The notes under the pieces: model-generated | Databases searched by the model: none | Seen by the model: only the letters and a program-made list of their open reading frames with translations | What the model was told of the DNA's origin: nothing | In this document: one piece after another, positions 18,425 to 27,876 of the stretch | Numbering within the stretch: the stretch's first letter is position 1 | Layout: every line of letters starts with the position of its first letter | Source: a virus | IMG/VR virus record: IMGVR_UViG_3300032331_003817 | Coordinates: 1 to 27,876 of that record | DNA: 27,876 nt | Strand: one strand, 5' to 3' | Made by a program: the position numbers and the translations under genes

Positions 18425-20626
18425 TTATCCAGTTATTGCCCATCCTTTTGCTGTTATTGTTGCTCTTTCTGCTGCAGACCCTGTATATGCTGCTCCTGTA
18501 AGATTTATTGTTTTTGATACTACATTACTCCCAGATACAAGATCATTAAACAAAGTAACAAGTGATCCACTAGACATATTTGTATATCCTAAATTTATTT
18601 GAGGTGATGTTCCTGTCCATTGACCTGAACCAGTATTTAAAAGTCTTACTGCTTGTACATCTGTTCTCATGGATGTTGATGATCCTGGTTGGTTTAGTTC
18701 AAGTTTACTTAATGGTCCTGAAAATGAAATTGCAGAACCACTTGTAAATCTGTTATATTGTATACTGGTAGCAGTAATTAAAGGTGTAGTAGTTAAAGAT
18801 CCTATTTTTTCAAAGTTTGTAAGTGTTTTTAAATTAGAACACAATACAAACATAGAACTTATATCTGTTACCGCTGACAATTGGGCAGCTCCTGGTAAAA
18901 CACAAGTTTTTAAACTCGTACAATTATTAAAAGCAAAAGAAAATGTTGTAACAGCACCTACAGTATTTGGTAATGTAATACTCTCAATTGATCTACAATT
19001 GCTGATTATGCTTCCAAAATCAGTACATGCAGACATTGAAGTAGGTAAAGTAACAGATGTAAGTAAATTACAACCACTAAAACATCCTGATATTGTAGTA
19101 ACAAGATTTAAACTTGAAGGTAGTGTTACACTTGATAGCATATAACAATTTGCAAAAGTACTTGAAAGTGTGGTTAATGCAGTCATAGATGAGGGCATTG
19201 AAATACTTGTTAATATATAACAACTAGTAAATGCAGTACTTAATGATGTTAAAGAATTTTGAGTTCCTGGTGTCCATGTAAATGTTTTTAAACTGTAACA
19301 ACTAATACACATTGATGCCATAGTTGAAAATTGATACCCGGAAGGAATTGTAATTTCTTGTAATTTATAACAACTGCTAAATGTAGAACTAAAACTAACT
19401 GCTGCTGAGGGTGCTGCAGGTAATGTAATTTTAAGTAAAGAAGAGCATCCACTAAACATGCTAGCATAGGTAGTACATGCTGCAGCACTAGTAGGTAATG
19501 TACATGAGGTTAGTAAAGTGCATGACTGAAAAGTACTTGCAAAAGTACTAACATTTATATTTGATGGTAAAACAATGGTTTTTAATTGCGAACAAGAAGA
19601 AAATGTAGAATTAAAGTTATATATAGATCCTGCGGTACCAGTGGCAGGAAAATATACATTTTGTAAATTAAAACAACTAGAAAAACAAGATCCCATATTG
19701 ATTGCGCCAACTACTGTTGGCATACTTGTAAATTTTACCCATTCTAATTGACTACAAGCGGAAAAAACACTTGTCATGGAGGTAACAGCATTAATTGAAG
19801 GAAATGTAATAGATCTTAAATTTAAGCAGGCACTGAAACAGGAACCTATATCAGTACATGAATTCATTGTGGTTGGAAAAGTAACAGATCTTAAGTTACT
19901 ACAACTAGAAAAAGTATTACCTAAATTTGTAATATTAGTAGAATTTGACGGGAAAGTCAATTCTAATAAATTATAACATTGATAAAATGCTTGACTTAAT
20001 GAAGTCATTGCAGAATTAGAAGTTGGCATGACCACTTTAAGTAAGGATACACAGTTATAAAAAGTTGTAGTCCAACCGGTCCAAGATACTGTTGCTGGCA
20101 GTTTTACATATTGTAACATGCTATATACCCCTAATGAATTGGTATTTTGTCCTAATGAATAAAAATTAACAGCAGTTGCATTTTGTGTACTATCACCATA
20201 ATATGCTTCTAATACATTACAAATTTGAGAACTATTAGTATTACCACTAATTAAAATAGGCATTATATTGCAATTACTTAAAACTGATACTCCAGTTCCT
20301 GTAAAATAAACTCTAATTTTAAATGTTGTATAACCTAAAGTACAAGGAGTTCCAGTTCCTGGAGTATATGTGTGGTTAGTATTTGTTGATGCAGTAGTAG
20401 TAACTGTACTAGTAGTTCCGTCTCCCCAATCTATAATTATATTTTGGGTACCTGATGTTCTTGTAAATGATGTTCTAATTGAACAGGCTGCATCTCCAAG
20501 ATCACAAAATAGGAATTGTACTTCTGTTGCTACATCTGTAATTACAGGCCAATCTGAAGGTCTTGAATATGATGCTGGACCTGTTGTTCTATTAAAATAA
20601 TTTTGTACTGGTAAATTAAATGCCAT
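18425..20626 (-). CDS. BspA-type leucine-rich-repeat adhesin, probable receptor-binding protein
   Basis: A 733-residue protein. Residues about 40-120 contain IIIDWGDGTTST and NHTYTPGTGTP, a PKD-like Ig domain. Residues about 165-600 hold some 17 leucine-rich repeats of the BspA/LRR_5 type, each about 23-25 residues with the pattern F-x-x-C-x-x-L-x-x-(V/I)-x-(L/F)-P, for example TFSSCSNLRSVTFP and CFSGCNLLTSVTLP, with a Cys at the same place in every copy. The C-terminus (about 640-733) has VRLLNTGSGQWTG and ends AERATITAKGWAITG, a short cap I associate with Bacteroidota-type LRR proteins. No signal peptide is present, consistent with a virion protein. It sits between the long fibre and a small assembly-like protein, so it probably binds the host surface. 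The start follows the fibre stop by 2 bp. Confidence 0.78.
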   Translation of the reverse strand: MAFNLPVQNYFNRTTGPASYSRPSDWPVITDVATEVQFLFCDLGDAACSIRTSFTRTSGTQNIIIDWGDGTTSTVTTTASTNTNHTYTPGTGTPCTLGYTTFKIRVYFTGTGVSVLSNCNIMPILISGNTNSSQICNVLEAYYGDSTQNATAVNFYSLGQNTNSLGVYSMLQYVKLPATVSWTGWTTTFYNCVSLLKVVMPTSNSAMTSLSQAFYQCYNLLELTFPSNSTNITNLGNTFSSCSNLRSVTFPTTMNSCTDIGSCFSACLNLRSITFPSINAVTSMTSVFSACSQLEWVKFTSMPTVVGAINMGSCFSSCFNLQNVYFPATGTAGSIYNFNSTFSSCSQLKTIVLPSNINVSTFASTFQSCTLLTSCTLPTSAAACTTYASMFSGCSSLLKITLPAAPSAAVSFSSTFSSCYKLQEITIPSGYQFSTMASMCISCYSLKTFTWTPGTQNSLTSLSTAFTSCYILTSISMPSSMTALTTLSSTFANCYMLSSVTLPSSLNLVTTISGCFSGCNLLTSVTLPTSMSACTDFGSIISNCRSIESITLPNTVGAVTTFSFAFNNCTSLKTCVLPGAAQLSAVTDISSMFVLCSNLKTLTNFEKIGSLTTTPLITATSIQYNRFTSGSAISFSGPLSKLELNQPGSSTSMRTDVQAVRLLNTGSGQWTGTSPQINLGYTNMSSGSLVTLFNDLVSGSNVVSKTINLTGAAYTGSAAERATITAKGWAITG
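18815..20120 (-). repeat. Tandem LRR-coding repeats (about 17 units, 69-75 bp each)
   Basis: Each unit encodes one BspA-type leucine-rich repeat with the core F-x-x-C-x-x-L-x-x-V-x-L-P. The units differ at most synonymous and variable positions, so the array is older and more diverged than the SHAEG array in the next gene. The invariant Cys and Leu codons are the clearest landmarks. Variation is concentrated between the LxxVxLP strand and the next FxxC. Confidence 0.75.
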
Positions 20627-20628
20627 AG

Positions 20629-23600
20629 TTATACTGTTGGAAATATAGTTATTTCTCCTGTTATGTTTGTTTGAGGTGGGAATAATGCATAGAATGAAGC
20701 TGTTCCTGCAATAACGGTTACTTGTGGAAGTATGCCGGCTGTGGTTACTTCGGTATAACTAGCATTATCCGGAGTAAAATCTACTCTCGTATTGGTTGTT
20801 ATATTTGCATTAGCAAATGAACTAGTATAATAACTACCCGTAGCTACCCAACTTGATGATGGTAATGTTTGGGAAGTTAATTTGTAAATAGATGCTCCAC
20901 CTCCAGCACTTGGCGCCCATGAAGCAGACACAGCAAAGCTTGAGCTTATAGCATTTAAGATAAACGAAGCTGTTTGAGCATTTAAAACGTAACTAGCAGT
21001 TTGTGCTGTTTGAACAAATGAAGCAGTTTGAGCTATTGTTACGTATGAAGCAGTTTGAGCAAAACTTGAGCTTATAGCATTTTGTACATAAGATGCTGTT
21101 TGAGCACTTTGAACAAACGAAGCTGTTTGAGCTGTTTGAACAAACGAAGCTGTTTGAGTAAAACTTGAGCTTACTGCACTTAAAACATAGGAAGCTGTTT
21201 GAGCATTTTGTACAAACGAAGCTGTTTGAGCACTTTGTACGTATGATGCTGTTTGAGCTGTCTGTACATAAGATGCTGTAGTTGCGAAGCTTGAACTTAC
21301 TGCATTTAAAACATATGAGGCCGTTTGAGCTGTACCTTGGATTGACCCTGTAAATCCTGCAGTCGACGTAACACTTCCACTAAATATTGCGGGACCTATG
21401 TTTGTAAAGGTACTTGACCCAGATACTATTAAAGATCCAGTTACTTGTACTTGTGAACCTGAAGCAAATATAAGATTTGATCTTGCGGCATCCGATGTTC
21501 CATTACCTACAATAAAAGCACTTTGTGCTGATGATGATATATTATATTGTCCTTGTACGTGCTGGTATGATCCTGATGCTACAGTATAATATCCTTCTGC
21601 GTGTGATGCATATCCGGTTGTTGTTGTATTACTACCTTCTGCGTGTGAGAATCCTCCAGATGCTATTGTACTATCTCCTTCTGCGTGTGAAGCACCTCCG
21701 TATGCTGTTGTACCTTGTCCTTCTGCGTGTGAACCCACCCCAGTTGCAATTGTATTAATACCTTCTGCGTGTGATGATACTCCGGTTGATGTTGAACCTT
21801 CACCTTCTGCGTGTGATGATTGTCCGGTTGCTGTTGTACCTTGTCCTTCTGCGTGAGATGCTACTCCAGTAGTTATTGTAGTATGACCTTCTGCGTGTGA
21901 ATAGTATCCTAATGCTTCAGTAGAATAACCTTCAGCTGAAGATCCTAACCCAACGGTATGTGTTGATTCTCCACTTGTATGGCCAAAATTACCAATTGAT
22001 TCATCAGCTAATGTAGGATTATAATCACCATATATACCTACTTGATATTTGTTATTGGATGTATTAATACTAGTATCAACTAATGTTATTTGGGTAGCAG
22101 GAGTTCCAGTGTATGTAGAGGATAATACTTCAAGCTTGAATATATTTGGTGTCCCATTAATTTGTCCAATTACATCATCAATTAATACAAATAAACCCGC
22201 GGTAAATAATGAGGTTAAATCACCATACCCAGAATCTAATTCAAATACACCTGAAGTTATAGCTGTGGATGCTCCATATGTTAATTGACCTGCAATTGTA
22301 CTACCACCTTCTGCGTGTGAGTATGATCCGATTGCTTGGGTACTATCACCTTCTGCGTGGGATGCAAATCCTGATGCTGTTGTAACTTGTCCTTCTGCGT
22401 GTGAATAATCTCCGGTTGCTGTTGGAGAAGCACCTTCTGCGTGTGAAGCGAATCCTTGTGCCGTTGTATAATATCCTTCTGCGTGTGAATAGGATCCAGA
22501 TGAATTTGTGGCATAACCTTCTGCGTGTGAAGCCTCTCCATTTGCAGCTGCACCATAACCTTCTGCGTGTGAATATTGTCCAGTTGAAAATGTAGTATTT
22601 CCTTCTGCGTGTGAGTAATTTCCGGCTGTATTTGTACTAATACCTTGGGCATGTGATCCTGTTTGGATCAATAATCCATTTATTGTAACGGTTTGGGTTA
22701 ACGGGTTTACAAATGAAGCCGTTGAAGCAAAGCTTGAACTTACTGCAGTTCCAAGTAGTGATCCTGTAAATCCTGCAGTTGCAATAACACTTCCAGTTAC
22801 TTGTACTTGAGAACCTGAAGCAAATATTAGATTTGATCTTGAAACATCTGCTGTACCATTACCTACTATAAAAGCACTTTGTGCTGAAGAGGAGAGGTTG
22901 TATTGACCTTGTACGTGCTGATAAGATCCTGATGATACTGTATTAAAACCTTCTGCGTGGGAGTAGTCAGCTGATGCTGTTGTAGATCTACCTTCTGCGT
23001 GTGAACCCACTCCTGACGCTACTGTAAGTTGGCCTTCTGCGTGTGAATACGATCCATTTGCAGTTGTTCCATAACCTTCTGCGTGGGATGCAAATCCTGA
23101 TGCTGTTGTAACTTGTCCTTCTGCGTGTGAAGAACCTCCATTTGCTGTTGTACCTTGTCCTTCTGCGTGTGAATATAATCCTGATGCTACTGTAACCCAA
23201 CCTTCTGCGTGTGAATAATTTCCGGAAGCTGTTACCTTAAATCCTTGAACATGGGAAAATAAACCTGATGCTAATGAAGCTGATCCTTGATTGAATGATC
23301 CAGTTATACCTAATGAACCTGAAATAATAGCAGATCCGGTGTATGGAAATGTTGTGTCCGGTGCGTATGAAGCACTTAAAGCATTTGTAGCAAATGAAGC
23401 AGTTGTAGCAAAACTTGAACTTATAGCATTTAAAACGTATGAAGCAGTTGTAGCGGTTCCAAGTAAAGATCCGGTGAAGGATCCACTAAATGATCCAGTA
23501 TTTGAAAGGAATTGATCTACACGATTTGCTGTTACTATTAAAGAAGGGATACCCGGCACTACTCCAAATGCTGCCTCAGCGTGTAAACGTACATTTGCGT

Positions 23601-24369
23601 CTGGTGAATACCACATTAGTTGGAAGTAATCACCTGCAGCGGCGTTCACAAAGAAATTCCATGCTGCAACATAATGAGCTCCGTTTCCTACAAGTTGTAC
23701 AGAAGTAGCAGAATCACTAATATTTGATCCGTTTTTTCTAATCCATATCCATATCTCATCGGTTCCACTATCTGTTTTATCTACTTGAGCAGAAAATTGT
23801 ATATCATATACTCCCGCATTTTCTGTTTTAACATATGTGTTATATGGATTTGTTGATCCTGAGATAGATACTCCGTTTGTAATGTCTGTTGTATTAAGAG
23901 ACATTGAACGGGCAGTACCAGCAACATTGGTTTGAGTTTGGGTAGAATAAAAACTACCATATGAACCCGTAGCTGTATTAAATCCACCACTTACTGCTGT
24001 TGAAGAAACAGTAACTTGACCTAAACCATTTGTTGGTGATAAAGATATATTTGGGCCTGCTAACAGTTGGGTTACTCCACCATTTGCAGCATATGAAGCA
24101 CTTACGGATTGTAATACATAAGATGCTGTTTGTGCATTTTGAACAAATGAAGAGGTTAAAGCATACGAAGCAGTACCTGCAAATTGTGAGGTATTTGAAC
24201 CTGTATATGCATTAAATGAAGATGTAGTTACAAATGATCCAGTATTAATGCTACTTGAAATTGTAAAAAGTGATCCGGTTCCATCATATATAAGTGTTCC
24301 ATCTGTTTGGAGAACACGTTGATATGTATCTTCAATATTTGACCCTGATAAATTAAGAGGTCCTGCCAT
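20629..24369 (-). CDS. Long tail fibre with C1q-like domain and SHAEG head repeats
   Basis: A 1246-residue fibre. Residues 1-130: attachment region with TASYALTSSFVQ-type repeats. Residues about 130-290: a C1q/TNF-like jelly-roll (VYDIQFSAQVDKTDSGTDEI, GAHYVAAWNFFVNAAAGDYF). Residues about 385-475, 583-690 and 813-926: three blocks of 14-residue repeats with SHAEG (7, 8 and 8 copies), as in YadA-type heads and Firmicutes phage fibres. Blocks 1 and 3 each end in a QHVQGQYN ... AFIVGNG ... RSNLIFASGS cap; an unrelated 110-residue domain separates blocks 2 and 3. Residues about 1010-1145: octads of AQTASYVQ type. Residues 1150-1246: a C-terminal beta domain. It is probably trimeric and forms the distal fibre. 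The preceding TATAAAAATAAGTT lacks a Shine-Dalgarno. No Peptidase_S74 chaperone is seen. Confidence 0.85.
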   Translation of the reverse strand: MAGPLNLSGSNIEDTYQRVLQTDGTLIYDGTGSLFTISSSINTGSFVTTSSFNAYTGSNTSQFAGTASYALTSSFVQNAQTASYVLQSVSASYAANGGVTQLLAGPNISLSPTNGLGQVTVSSTAVSGGFNTATGSYGSFYSTQTQTNVAGTARSMSLNTTDITNGVSISGSTNPYNTYVKTENAGVYDIQFSAQVDKTDSGTDEIWIWIRKNGSNISDSATSVQLVGNGAHYVAAWNFFVNAAAGDYFQLMWYSPDANVRLHAEAAFGVVPGIPSLIVTANRVDQFLSNTGSFSGSFTGSLLGTATTASYVLNAISSSFATTASFATNALSASYAPDTTFPYTGSAIISGSLGITGSFNQGSASLASGLFSHVQGFKVTASGNYSHAEGWVTVASGLYSHAEGQGTTANGGSSHAEGQVTTASGFASHAEGYGTTANGSYSHAEGQLTVASGVGSHAEGRSTTASADYSHAEGFNTVSSGSYQHVQGQYNLSSSAQSAFIVGNGTADVSRSNLIFASGSQVQVTGSVIATAGFTGSLLGTAVSSSFASTASFVNPLTQTVTINGLLIQTGSHAQGISTNTAGNYSHAEGNTTFSTGQYSHAEGYGAAANGEASHAEGYATNSSGSYSHAEGYYTTAQGFASHAEGASPTATGDYSHAEGQVTTASGFASHAEGDSTQAIGSYSHAEGGSTIAGQLTYGASTAITSGVFELDSGYGDLTSLFTAGLFVLIDDVIGQINGTPNIFKLEVLSSTYTGTPATQITLVDTSINTSNNKYQVGIYGDYNPTLADESIGNFGHTSGESTHTVGLGSSAEGYSTEALGYYSHAEGHTTITTGVASHAEGQGTTATGQSSHAEGEGSTSTGVSSHAEGINTIATGVGSHAEGQGTTAYGGASHAEGDSTIASGGFSHAEGSNTTTTGYASHAEGYYTVASGSYQHVQGQYNISSSAQSAFIVGNGTSDAARSNLIFASGSQVQVTGSLIVSGSSTFTNIGPAIFSGSVTSTAGFTGSIQGTAQTASYVLNAVSSSFATTASYVQTAQTASYVQSAQTASFVQNAQTASYVLSAVSSSFTQTASFVQTAQTASFVQSAQTASYVQNAISSSFAQTASYVTIAQTASFVQTAQTASYVLNAQTASFILNAISSSFAVSASWAPSAGGGASIYKLTSQTLPSSSWVATGSYYTSSFANANITTNTRVDFTPDNASYTEVTTAGILPQVTVIAGTASFYALFPPQTNITGEITIFPTV
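20930..21335 (-). repeat. TASYV/TASFV octad repeats (24-bp units)
   Basis: The plus strand shows repeated GAAGCTGTTTGAGC-like units about 24 bp apart, coding AQTASFVQ, AQTASYVL and so on, interspersed with AISSSFA and AVSSSFT. A few diverged units also lie near 24110-24190 and 23370-23450 in the same gene. The octads probably form a repetitive trimeric shaft. The near identity of several units makes them likely to change number by recombination. Confidence 0.75.
21593..21942 (-). repeat. SHAEG array block 3 (8 exact units plus 1 degenerate, 42-bp period)
   Basis: The core CCTTCTGCGTG (plus strand) begins at 21593, 21635, 21677, 21719, 21761, 21803, 21845 and 21887, exactly 42 bp apart. A degenerate copy (CCTTCAGCTG, coding SAEG) follows at 21929. 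Each unit codes 14 residues with SHAEG at the fixed place. This block is the one nearest the fibre's C-terminal shaft. Confidence 0.92.
22307..22614 (-). repeat. SHAEG array block 2 (8 units, 42-bp period)
   Basis: The core CCTTCTGCGTG begins at 22307, 22349, 22391, 22433, 22475, 22517, 22559 and 22601 without any drift in spacing. One unit here (22348-22405) is identical over 58 bp to part of block 1. The block lies between a short HAQG leader and the 110-residue inserted domain. Confidence 0.92.
22949..23214 (-). repeat. SHAEG array block 1 (7 units, 42-bp period)
   Basis: The core CCTTCTGCGTG begins at 22949, 22991, 23033, 23075, 23117, 23159 and 23201, exactly 42 bp apart. A related SHVQG unit with different codons precedes it in the protein. 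The block ends in a QHVQGQYN cap whose coding sequence is duplicated after block 3. Confidence 0.92.
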
Positions 24370-25290: not shown

Positions 25291-25884
25291 TTACCTAATA
25301 TCTGTTGATTCAATTAAAGTATAAGTAAAAGAATTTCCATGAATATCTCTTGATTTGCGACAAATTGCCATAAACTCTTCAAAGTCTTTAGATCGTTTAA
25401 ATACTTGACATCCTTCAGACCAATTTTCTACATAGGTAGAATCGGCTCCTGCTTTGTGAATATTAATTCCAAATACACCTTCATCAATTTTTAATTCATC
25501 AAACTTTAAATCTTTATTAGCATCACGATATACTTTAACGTTTTTTGCTTGACCTAAAGCTTCGTATTTCCCTTGATGTAATCTAATAGTATGTGATCCT
25601 CTATATTGACCTTCTACTAAACGTGCAACTCCTTTTGCATTGTGGAATTGTTGAACACCTTTTTTACCTGGGTCAGTTGTATTTGTCCATTCTTTGTATT
25701 GCCATTCCCCTCCTACTTTATAGGATACTGTAATAACGTCATCAAATACGTTTGTTACTGTTTGACCTGTTGCTGCGTTTCTAACACCTACGATGTTTAC
25801 GTCATAATCTTTTGCTCCTTCAAACCAAACATATCCTTTTGATTTTACTGCTGCTTCAACTTGTTCTTTTGTGTACTTTGCCAT
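25291..25884 (-). CDS. Putative lysin with L,D-transpeptidase-like (YkuD-like) active site
   Basis: A 197-residue protein. The C-terminal part carries FGINIHKAG (His143) and ENWSEGCQVF (Ser156, Cys159), the His ... SxGC arrangement of YkuD-type L,D-transpeptidases, followed by FEEFMAICRKSRDIHGNSFT. A preceding segment has GQYRGSHTIRLHQGKYEALG and VYRDANKDLKFDE. Proteins of this pattern occur in phages and are thought to act on peptidoglycan. Its place in a cassette with a holin-like gene supports a role in host lysis or in cell-wall modification. No signal peptide is present, so export would need the holin. The YkuD assignment is by motif only; it might alternatively be a non-catalytic relative, although both key residues are present. 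The leader ATAAAATAAAATAAAA precedes ATG. Confidence 0.6.
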   Translation of the reverse strand: MAKYTKEQVEAAVKSKGYVWFEGAKDYDVNIVGVRNAATGQTVTNVFDDVITVSYKVGGEWQYKEWTNTTDPGKKGVQQFHNAKGVARLVEGQYRGSHTIRLHQGKYEALGQAKNVKVYRDANKDLKFDELKIDEGVFGINIHKAGADSTYVENWSEGCQVFKRSKDFEEFMAICRKSRDIHGNSFTYTLIESTDIR

Positions 25885-25918: not shown

Positions 25919-26929
25919 TTAAAACCAATTTTTAGGGTTCCATTTTGATCTTTTAGCATCTTCTGCAGCTCTGTTTAAAGCATCTTGTGTTTCACGAGCT
26001 ACTCTTTCAGTCTCTCTTTGTGCTGCTTCTGCTGCTGCTTGAGTTTCTCTAGCTACACGTTCAGTTTCTCTTTGAGCTGCTGCTGCTTGTTCTTCAGCAA
26101 TTCTTCTTGATTCTGCTGCTAAACGATCCGCTTCTCTTTGAGCTGCTTCTGCTTGCGCTTTAGCTTCGTTTGCAATTCTATCAGCCTCTCTTTGTGCTGC
26201 TTCTGCTGCTAATCGTTGTGCCTCTAAAGCTAAACGATCAGCTTCTCTTTGAGTCGCTTCAGCTAATTCCCTTGACACTTTTGCTAATTTTTCTGCCTCC
26301 TCTGCTGCTATTCTAGCATCTTCAGCTATTTGATTTGTATCAACGCTTACACTTAAATCAACATCAACTCCAAGCAATACTGCTACCTCACCACTAACTC
26401 CTACTGTTGCTACTCCGTCTACGTAAGTAGCTTCACCACCACCCCCAATTCCAACTTGCTCTCCAACTGACACACCTGCACCCGCTGTAACTGAGCCCTC
26501 TCTGAAATCAGCAGTTCCTTCTCCATCAACACCTACTGAGGTACCTGCTGATACACTTCCGTTTGCTACTACCCCTTCATCACCTGCTCTTACTTCAAGA
26601 CTAGCTTCGTTTCCTGTTTTTGCATAAGCATCTACAGAACCACCAACTCCAAATCCTTCAGCATTAGCTTGGCCCTCTACTGTAACATGAACTTCAGTTG
26701 TATCTGAATAGTTTGCTTCTACATACACATTGTTACCATCTAAGCCACCATCAACTGATGCTTCGGTTCCAGTTTTAGCAGACACTTCAATACCAATTGA
26801 GGCATTTTCATCTCCTGTTTCTACTCCTGCAGATGCTGTAGTTGTAGTGTCAATTGAGGCACCACCTGAGGTTTCATCTGAATGTGTTTCAGCTGTTTGA
26901 TTTTGTTTCACACGCGCATGTTTTTTCAT
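25919..26929 (-). CDS. Ala/Gly-rich fibrous protein with long C-terminal coiled coil
   Basis: A 336-residue protein. Residues 1-35 are a basic then Thr/Ser-rich lead with no signal peptide. Residues 36-200 are Gly/Val/Ala-rich alternating strands with internal repeats (AKTGTEASVD at 51, AKTGNEASLE at 103; GVSVGEQVGIGGGGEATYV), suggesting a beta-solenoid or beta-prism. Residues 201-326 are a continuous charged coiled coil in which QRE(A/T)(D/E)R recurs five times at 18-22 residue spacing. It ends SKWNPKNWF. The layout resembles a trimeric fibre or a TolA/colicin-like translocation region. Its DNA is visibly less AT-rich than its neighbours, a sign of protein composition or of recent acquisition. 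It lies 2 bp from the sensor-like gene. The role is unknown: spanin-like tether, adhesin or secreted fibre are all possible. Confidence 0.7.
   Translation of the reverse strand: MKKHARVKQNQTAETHSDETSGGASIDTTTTASAGVETGDENASIGIEVSAKTGTEASVDGGLDGNNVYVEANYSDTTEVHVTVEGQANAEGFGVGGSVDAYAKTGNEASLEVRAGDEGVVANGSVSAGTSVGVDGEGTADFREGSVTAGAGVSVGEQVGIGGGGEATYVDGVATVGVSGEVAVLLGVDVDLSVSVDTNQIAEDARIAAEEAEKLAKVSRELAEATQREADRLALEAQRLAAEAAQREADRIANEAKAQAEAAQREADRLAAESRRIAEEQAAAAQRETERVARETQAAAEAAQRETERVARETQDALNRAAEDAKRSKWNPKNWF
25965..26330 (-). repeat. Coiled-coil coding repeats (QREADR / QRETER units)
   Basis: The plus strand shows repeated CTCTTTGAGCTGC(T)-like blocks coding AAQREADRLA and AAQRETERVARETQ. 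The last two units are near-identical in protein. Spacing is 18-22 residues, not the 14-residue period seen in the fibre gene. The units probably build an extended helical shaft. Confidence 0.65.
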
Positions 26930-26931
26930 GT

Positions 26932-27555
26932 TTATTTCTTTTTTATAGGTTTTTTGATGGGTTTTTTAATGGGTTTCTTTTTTCTTACGGGTTTAGTAAT
27001 TAAGGGTTTATCAAATCTTATTAACATAACAAATCCCAATAATAGTAAAACTAAAAAATAAATATATATGTTAAGTTCTAAAACTGCTCGTTGCAATTTA
27101 TCATTAGATTTTTCATAAGTTACATTTCTTAAATTTTCTATACTAGTAATAATTCTAGTTTTATAAGATAAATATTGATCAGTAAAAAATGCGGTATCAT
27201 TCATAGCAGCAAATGCTGGGGCCTCTATTACTGTTGCTAATTCATTGCTCAAACTTAAACCTTCATTGTAATATACCATACCTTCAGGTATAATATCAAA
27301 TTTCATTTGCTTTCTTCTTTCTAAATGAGAATTAAATTCATTTATGAATTTTTCTTTACCTGTAGCAGTGTATGCTATGGCTAGATAGGTTAAGCTATCT
27401 GTAGAGGTTCTTAAGTAATATGCGGTTCGTTTACCATTATCTAACTCTACATGAGCGTCTTCAATATCCTTTATTGCCGACATCGATAATAGTGCTGCAA
27501 TTGCAATTGGAATAGATATAAGCCATAGCTTACTCTTTATTTTTTCTATAATCAT
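26932..27555 (-). CDS. Membrane protein with chemoreceptor-like extracellular sensor domain
   Basis: A 207-residue protein with two membrane helices (residues 9-27, LWLISIPIAIAALLSMSAI; residues 162-180, NIYIYFLVLLLLGFVMLIR) enclosing about 135 helical residues. Within them, YLRTSTDSLTYLAIAYTATG (48-66) and the following FINEFNSHLERRKQ match the pattern R-x-S-S-D-x-L-T-x-x-A-x-x-Y-x-x-T-G that marks the ligand-binding region of many methyl-accepting chemoreceptors and sensor kinases. SNELATVIEAPAFAAMN (103-119) and DQYLSYKTRIITSIENL fit the later helices of the same domain. There is no HAMP, kinase or MCP signalling module, only a tail of KKPIKKPIKKP repeats. It overlaps the holin-like gene by four bases (ATGA). 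A sensor of periplasmic state that gates lysis is a hypothesis; capture of a host gene fragment is the likely origin. Confidence 0.68.
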   Translation of the reverse strand: MIIEKIKSKLWLISIPIAIAALLSMSAIKDIEDAHVELDNGKRTAYYLRTSTDSLTYLAIAYTATGKEKFINEFNSHLERRKQMKFDIIPEGMVYYNEGLSLSNELATVIEAPAFAAMNDTAFFTDQYLSYKTRIITSIENLRNVTYEKSNDKLQRAVLELNIYIYFLVLLLLGFVMLIRFDKPLITKPVRKKKPIKKPIKKPIKKK

Positions 27556-27876
27556 TTAATAACTTTTTTAGTAACTTTCTTTTTAATAGGTGATTTTCTA
27601 ACGGGTTTTTTAACTTCTGGTTGAGGAGCAACTTGGTTTAAGAATTTATTACTTAATACTTCGACTAATTTTAATCCTAAAAATCCAACAATAAAAGCTA
27701 ACCCATTTTGTAGTTTAGCTTCTTTTAAATTAAGTAATTCAATCATTACGGGAGTAAGGTAATTTGCGGCTGCCATACCACCAAAAATAGATAATATAGT
27801 TGATCTAATACCGGTTTCGGTATTTTTAGATGCCATTAAGATAGCTCCAAATAACCCACTAATTAAAAAACTTATA
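27552..27876 (-). CDS. Holin-like membrane protein, start outside the window
   Basis: An ATG at 27836 gives 94 residues, but the same frame stays open to the right edge and codes ISFLISGLFGAIL directly before that Met, which looks like a membrane helix. The true start is therefore probably beyond 27876. Two further hydrophobic segments follow (TILSIFGGMAAANYLTPVMI and NGLAFIVGFLGLKLVEVL), then a cytoplasmic basic tail (KKPVRKSPIKKKVTKKVIK). Three helices with a basic C-terminus and small size fit a class I-type holin. It is coupled by an ATGA overlap to the sensor-like gene, and a YkuD-like lysin lies two genes downstream. No family-specific motif is certain. Confidence 0.6.
   Translation of the reverse strand, partial: ISFLISGLFGAILMASKNTETGIRSTILSIFGGMAAANYLTPVMIELLNLKEAKLQNGLAFIVGFLGLKLVEVLSNKFLNQVAPQPEVKKPVRKSPIKKKVTKKVIK

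Follow-up and report, generated by a model that had tools for sequence, protein, structure and literature searches.

The gene at positions 26932-27555 (minus strand) of the window, that is, the whole stretch of 27,876 bases analyzed here, was found to encode a stand-alone sensor domain of the chemoreceptor type, the ligand-binding half of a receptor without its output, an assignment that holds on both predicted fold and profile homology. The gene lies next to a predicted holin gene, and this linkage suggests that its product is most likely a membrane-bound regulator of the holin built on a captured receptor domain. We assign a probability of about 0.55 to the reading that the receptor half works as the membrane partner of the adjacent holin and sets the time of lysis. 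Such holin-linked sensors in large phages related to Flavobacterium phages suggest that sensing may precede the bursting of the cell.

The virus record, which is of the same length as the window and has no other copy, has a G+C content of 31%, and one of its baseplate proteins is closest to Flavobacterium phage immuto (45% identity over the whole length). From these two features we infer that the virus is probably a large contractile-tailed phage of a Bacteroidota host. Searches with the sensor protein, its alignments, and the neighboring holin identified homologs in 27 other viral contigs of up to 348 kb, with identity to the window protein ranging from 98% down to about 38%. Together with the window, these contigs yielded 24 distinct holin/sensor pairs, of which L015 is the window copy. 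The family is already represented in UniProt by a protein of an uncultured Caudovirales phage labeled only as 'uncharacterized protein' (BFVD A0A6J7WR66; 48% identity and TM-score 0.80 to the sensor). No relative was found by tblastn in named phages and plasmids, and two scans of bacterial genomes by short exact peptide patterns, which distant relatives escape, found no close one.

The open reading frame, proposed in the earlier note as a gene, proved to be real, since it encodes a 207-aa protein that has a family of homologs and is under purifying selection. In the periplasmic part, pN/pS averages 0.088 (66 pairs, close clade), and hence the domain is kept by strong purifying selection and its pattern is not due to chance. 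The N-terminus is basic, and hydropathy analysis indicates hydrophobic segments at about residues 8-31 and 154-187, separated by some 130 residues. The first transmembrane helix, TM1 (about residues 10-28, positions 27472-27528), begins helix 1 of the AlphaFold model and is followed by the periplasmic sensor domain (residues 28-161, 27073-27474), and TM2 (residues 161-180, 27016-27075) belongs to the model helix 126-181. In the place of a HAMP and an output domain, the alignment shows a basic Lys/Pro-rich C-terminal tail (residues 181-207, 26935-27015; all features on the minus strand), whose length differs among relatives. Thus the absence of the signaling module, noticed earlier from the sequence, is confirmed: the reading frame ends approximately 25 residues past TM2, and hmmscan detected no Pfam match to a HAMP or output domain in the protein.

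Near the beginning of the sensor domain lies the motif R-x-S-T-D-x-L-T-Y-L-x-x-A-Y-T-x-T-G (residues 49-66, 27358-27411, minus strand), which is common to bacterial chemoreceptors. In 13 aligned homologs, down to 38% identity, R49, S51, D53, L55, T56, Y62, and T65 are invariant. The pattern R-x-S-x-D-x-L-T followed by Y-x-x-T-G, as it had been read initially, therefore stands from R49 to T65 but not at G66, which is variable. The conserved residues may have a structural role instead of a ligand-binding one.

The AlphaFold model built with divergent homologs in the alignment (mean pLDDT 83.7, about 90 in the sensor domain), which replaced a poor one made with near-identical sequences (pLDDT 58.3), is a four-helix up-down bundle whose first and last helices extend through the membrane. 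Comparison with PDB by VIA-align returned exclusively bacterial sensor domains among the best 34 entries, with HK9 at the top (Z 13.0), and the best Foldseek matches in PDB were sensor domains of histidine kinases and chemoreceptors (top probability 1.00, but at an E-value of only 0.02). The three lines agree on a four-helix sensor domain, and so the outcome that the earlier note had named as a possible refutation, an unrelated fold, was not observed. Among viral structures, the second match (probability 1.00, TM-score 0.51) was BFVD A0A8S5L4P1, from an ssRNA phage record and named a 4HB MCP domain protein, which may be another example of a phage protein with a receptor-like bundle.

As helical bundles may reach such Z scores from their arrangement alone, evidence was also sought in the sequences. 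Searches of Pfam, PHROGs, and PDB sequences with the sensor protein and its profile gave nothing meaningful; in particular, Pfam 4HB_MCP_1 (PF12729) was matched neither by the protein in hmmscan nor in a six-frame search of the window. A consensus bait, which produced only chance matches in PDB, was used solely for finding bacterial proteins with the same motif, and the comparison itself was made with natural sequences, six of the chemoreceptor-like kind and one diguanylate cyclase, all taken from plasmid records. Aligned by hhalign, the phage and bacterial profiles match with probability 97.2 and E 2.8e-11 over 142 aligned columns at 23% identity, and either phage clade by itself reproduces the match. 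Outside the motif, SNEL...E..AF is aligned to SD.L...E..AM, and Y..YK..I to YH..KA.I. Since selection by bait favors the motif, the comparison was rerun without the motif half; the match became weaker (E 1.2e-4, probability 56), yet remained far above the shuffles. In the controls, a reversed profile and 100 column shuffles, the scores did not exceed 20, compared with 60 for the real profile. Together with the fold matches, this homology to natural bacterial receptors bears out the suggestion that the region between the two membrane helices is an extracellular domain of the chemoreceptor type.

Among the closest known systems are the bacterial LRQSSDDLTRLARTYVVTG-type sensor domains of chemoreceptors and diguanylate cyclases from Azospirillum (L052), Spartinivicinus (L054), Vibrio (L056), and Legionella (L057), which share with the phage sensor the motif, collinear helices, and a transmembrane segment on either side, but in which the loop joining helices 2 and 3 is longer. 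In the four bacterial relatives scanned with Pfam, the sensor region is followed by HAMP and MCPsignal or by GGDEF, whereas the phage protein ends with its basic tail after TM2. Pfam contains no separate model for the sensor region of these four proteins, which explains the silence of the profile libraries on the phage protein. The relationship between the phage and bacterial domains became visible only by fold and profile-profile comparison.

The gene upstream of the sensor (27552-27876, minus strand) overlaps the sensor start by the four bases ATGA. As the window ends within this gene, its reading frame, called from 27836, is truncated and the true start lies outside the window; the homolog in L001 begins 20 residues earlier, with MKEIGITISFLISGLFGAIL... 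Based on profile matches, we predict this gene to encode a holin of PHROG 2359, as it is small, has several transmembrane segments, and occurs near endolysin genes. The E-value against phrog_2359 is 5e-10 for the window protein and 2.6e-13 for the full-length homolog, with values in the family ranging to 8e-14. Members of the family have 94-119 aa, in which three hydrophobic segments and the basic tail leave no room for a periplasmic domain. The tails of holin and sensor are both basic and are alike within one phage, in loci that share ancestry.

The sensor adjoins the holin in all 24 distinct loci, the distance ranging from a called overlap of 83 bases to a gap of 23 bases. The order is holin-sensor in 16 of them and sensor-holin in eight, and persistence of the pair in both arrangements is good evidence that the two genes function together, with the reservation that the loci are related and few independent events stand behind the 24/24 adjacency. 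These two genes are the only constant ones within 3 kb, the next neighbors being present in 15 and then 12 of the 24 loci. A search with the holin profile found 28 contigs, 27 of which contain the sensor. The one contig lacking it, L085, encodes a holin that ends in a stub instead of the long Lys-rich tail; this holin shares a cassette with a lysozyme-type endolysin. Among nine whole records, six large ones have exactly one holin and one sensor each, and three phages with related baseplates have neither. Coupling of the sensor to a holin-like gene, claimed in the earlier note from the window, is thus supported by both the overlap and the conserved adjacency, and homologs away from holins, which could have spoken against it, were not encountered in the related phages.

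Chemoreceptors of this class respond to ligand binding with a shift of TM2. In the phage protein, TM2 leads only to the basic tail, and hence any output has to pass via the membrane or the tail to a neighbor; as the genetically fixed neighbor is the holin, we propose the holin as the receiver. The bundle would dimerize as chemoreceptors do, and the state of the periplasm (presence of a ligand, or a condition of the envelope or of crowding) would shift the transmembrane helices of the sensor. These helices, together with the basic tail, could then hinder or favor holin assembly and thereby set the lysis time. As a first guess, the effect of the sensor would be that of an antiholin. A more specific version, which we offer tentatively and consider less probable than the membrane partnership as such, is a chemosensory lysis clock, in which the four-helix domain would read a periplasmic signal and gate the holin directly across the membrane with no intracellular signaling; candidate signals would be a nutrient, an envelope fragment, or a crowding cue.

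The same linkage to the holin would also suit a structural lysis partner that senses nothing, such as a co-holin, scaffold, or membrane organizer with the bundle serving as a spacer or dimer module. The basic tails present in both proteins agree with this explanation, as does the fact that no ligand is known. However, a motif shared with receptors and invariant at 38-43% identity is more than a mere spacer needs, and we regard a purely structural role as rather doubtful, though it is the strongest of the competing explanations.

Two further explanations would detach the protein from lysis control. It could act as a dominant-negative receptor, forming mixed dimers with a four-helix receptor or sensor kinase of the host and silencing host signaling, so that the proximity to the holin would reflect late expression only. 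Retention of the input domain in the absence of the output domain fits such a role, and it is well established that four-helix sensor domains act as dimers in bacteria. On the other hand, the pairing is specific to the holin and occurs in two gene orders while the other late genes vary, and the two bacterial genome scans, insensitive as they are, found no close bacterial relative; we therefore consider this explanation improbable. Even less credit can be given to superinfection exclusion, in which an envelope protein expressed late with the lysis genes stops the entry of a second phage. An inner-membrane protein with a periplasmic domain would suit this function, and in T4 the control of the holin is connected with superinfection (PMC11413866), but exclusion predicts no tie to one holin family, and the observed tie is near-invariant.

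Returning to the sensor as a membrane partner of the holin, antiholin genes often lie beside holin genes, and their products may be integral to the membrane (PMC7182436; PMC11413866). P2 LysA and lambda S107 are membrane-integral antiholins encoded next to the holin (PMC11413866), and ArrA of ICP1 was found as an antiholin from its transmembrane segment and the proximity of its gene to that of the holin (PMC7182436). By position and topology the phage sensor agrees with these antiholins, having transmembrane segments and standing beside the holin in 24/24 loci, but it has a receptor-type periplasmic domain, which is not described for LysA, S107, or ArrA in these two papers. T4 RI binds the periplasmic domain of the holin T (PMC11413866). 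The comparison with RI made in the earlier note can be retained for its logic, as RI/T and the proposed sensor would both represent an envelope sensor next to the periplasm controlling a holin. It does not extend to the mode of contact: the holin of our phages has no periplasmic domain and a contact of the RI type is unlikely, so that we propose contact via the transmembrane helices, the tails, or both. Moreover, unlike RI, the phage sensor has two transmembrane helices and a four-helix bundle.

How sensing regulates lysis is understood in very few phages, including T4 and ICP1, and a limited literature search found no description of a holin paired with a chemoreceptor-type domain. In the family described here, a domain from a well-studied class of receptors is fixed beside a holin across divergent large phages. 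Since ligand-finding methods exist for such domains, phage sensing of the outside before lysis becomes directly testable, and the proposed function would show that a receptor input module can be reused without any signaling output.

Other genes near the pair may also be relevant for lysis. The product of the gene at 25291-25884 (minus strand) is a putative cell-wall-active lysis protein (phrog_3000, E 1.4e-37; phrog_33083, E 1e-12) that matches the C-terminal part of the endolysin family phrog_33083, the N-terminal part of which matches the L085 lysozyme. The early description of a putative lysin near the sensor is therefore reasonable. In L011, L044, and L078, a GH19-type or chitinase-like endolysin is encoded within about 2.5 kb of the pair. 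Between the putative lysin and the sensor, the gene at 25919-26929 (minus strand) encodes a 336-aa protein with no assigned role, which contains Gly/Ala-rich beta-like repeats, a long coiled coil of AAQRE-type repeats, and the conserved end KWNPKNWF. It has no known family match, and its relatives, found in 10 of the 24 loci in the main cluster and in four more in a related cluster, can flank the pair from either side, in both clades.

Several exported or membrane proteins were observed at the other loci. In 15/24 loci, the holin is directly preceded by a small exported protein (92-113 aa; L001:5351-5650 and equivalents) that has a signal peptide and apparent beta-strands and may act on the outer membrane. 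In six loci of the distant clade, a lipoprotein of approximately 320 aa that combines a coiled coil with a transmembrane segment in the middle of the protein is encoded just upstream of the pair (L050:3638-4600, L051:3667-4626, L032:2113-3066, L086:898-1869), and could be an unusual spanin. Directly upstream of the pair, L050:4619-4999 and L051:4628-4999 encode a phage protein of about 125 aa that resembles one transmembrane helix plus the MscS beta-domain (PF00924, E 0.033, below the cut-off); a truncated part of a tension channel next to a holin is of interest in its own right. At L085, the single locus in which the holin occurs without the sensor, the gene beside the lysozyme encodes a 151-aa lipoprotein (L085:1592-2047), which has a C-terminal transmembrane segment and the layout of a unimolecular spanin.

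Finally, two large genes of the window precede this region. The gene at 18425-20626 adjoins tail genes, and its 733-aa product, which carries BspA-type leucine-rich repeats (PF13306, E 6e-41), is a candidate for a receptor-binding protein or an adhesin. The 1246-aa product of the gene at 20629-24369, probably a tail fiber, contains many SHAEG-x-TTASG repeats, which resemble the head repeats of YadA-type adhesins and are mixed with TASYV/QTASF repeats.
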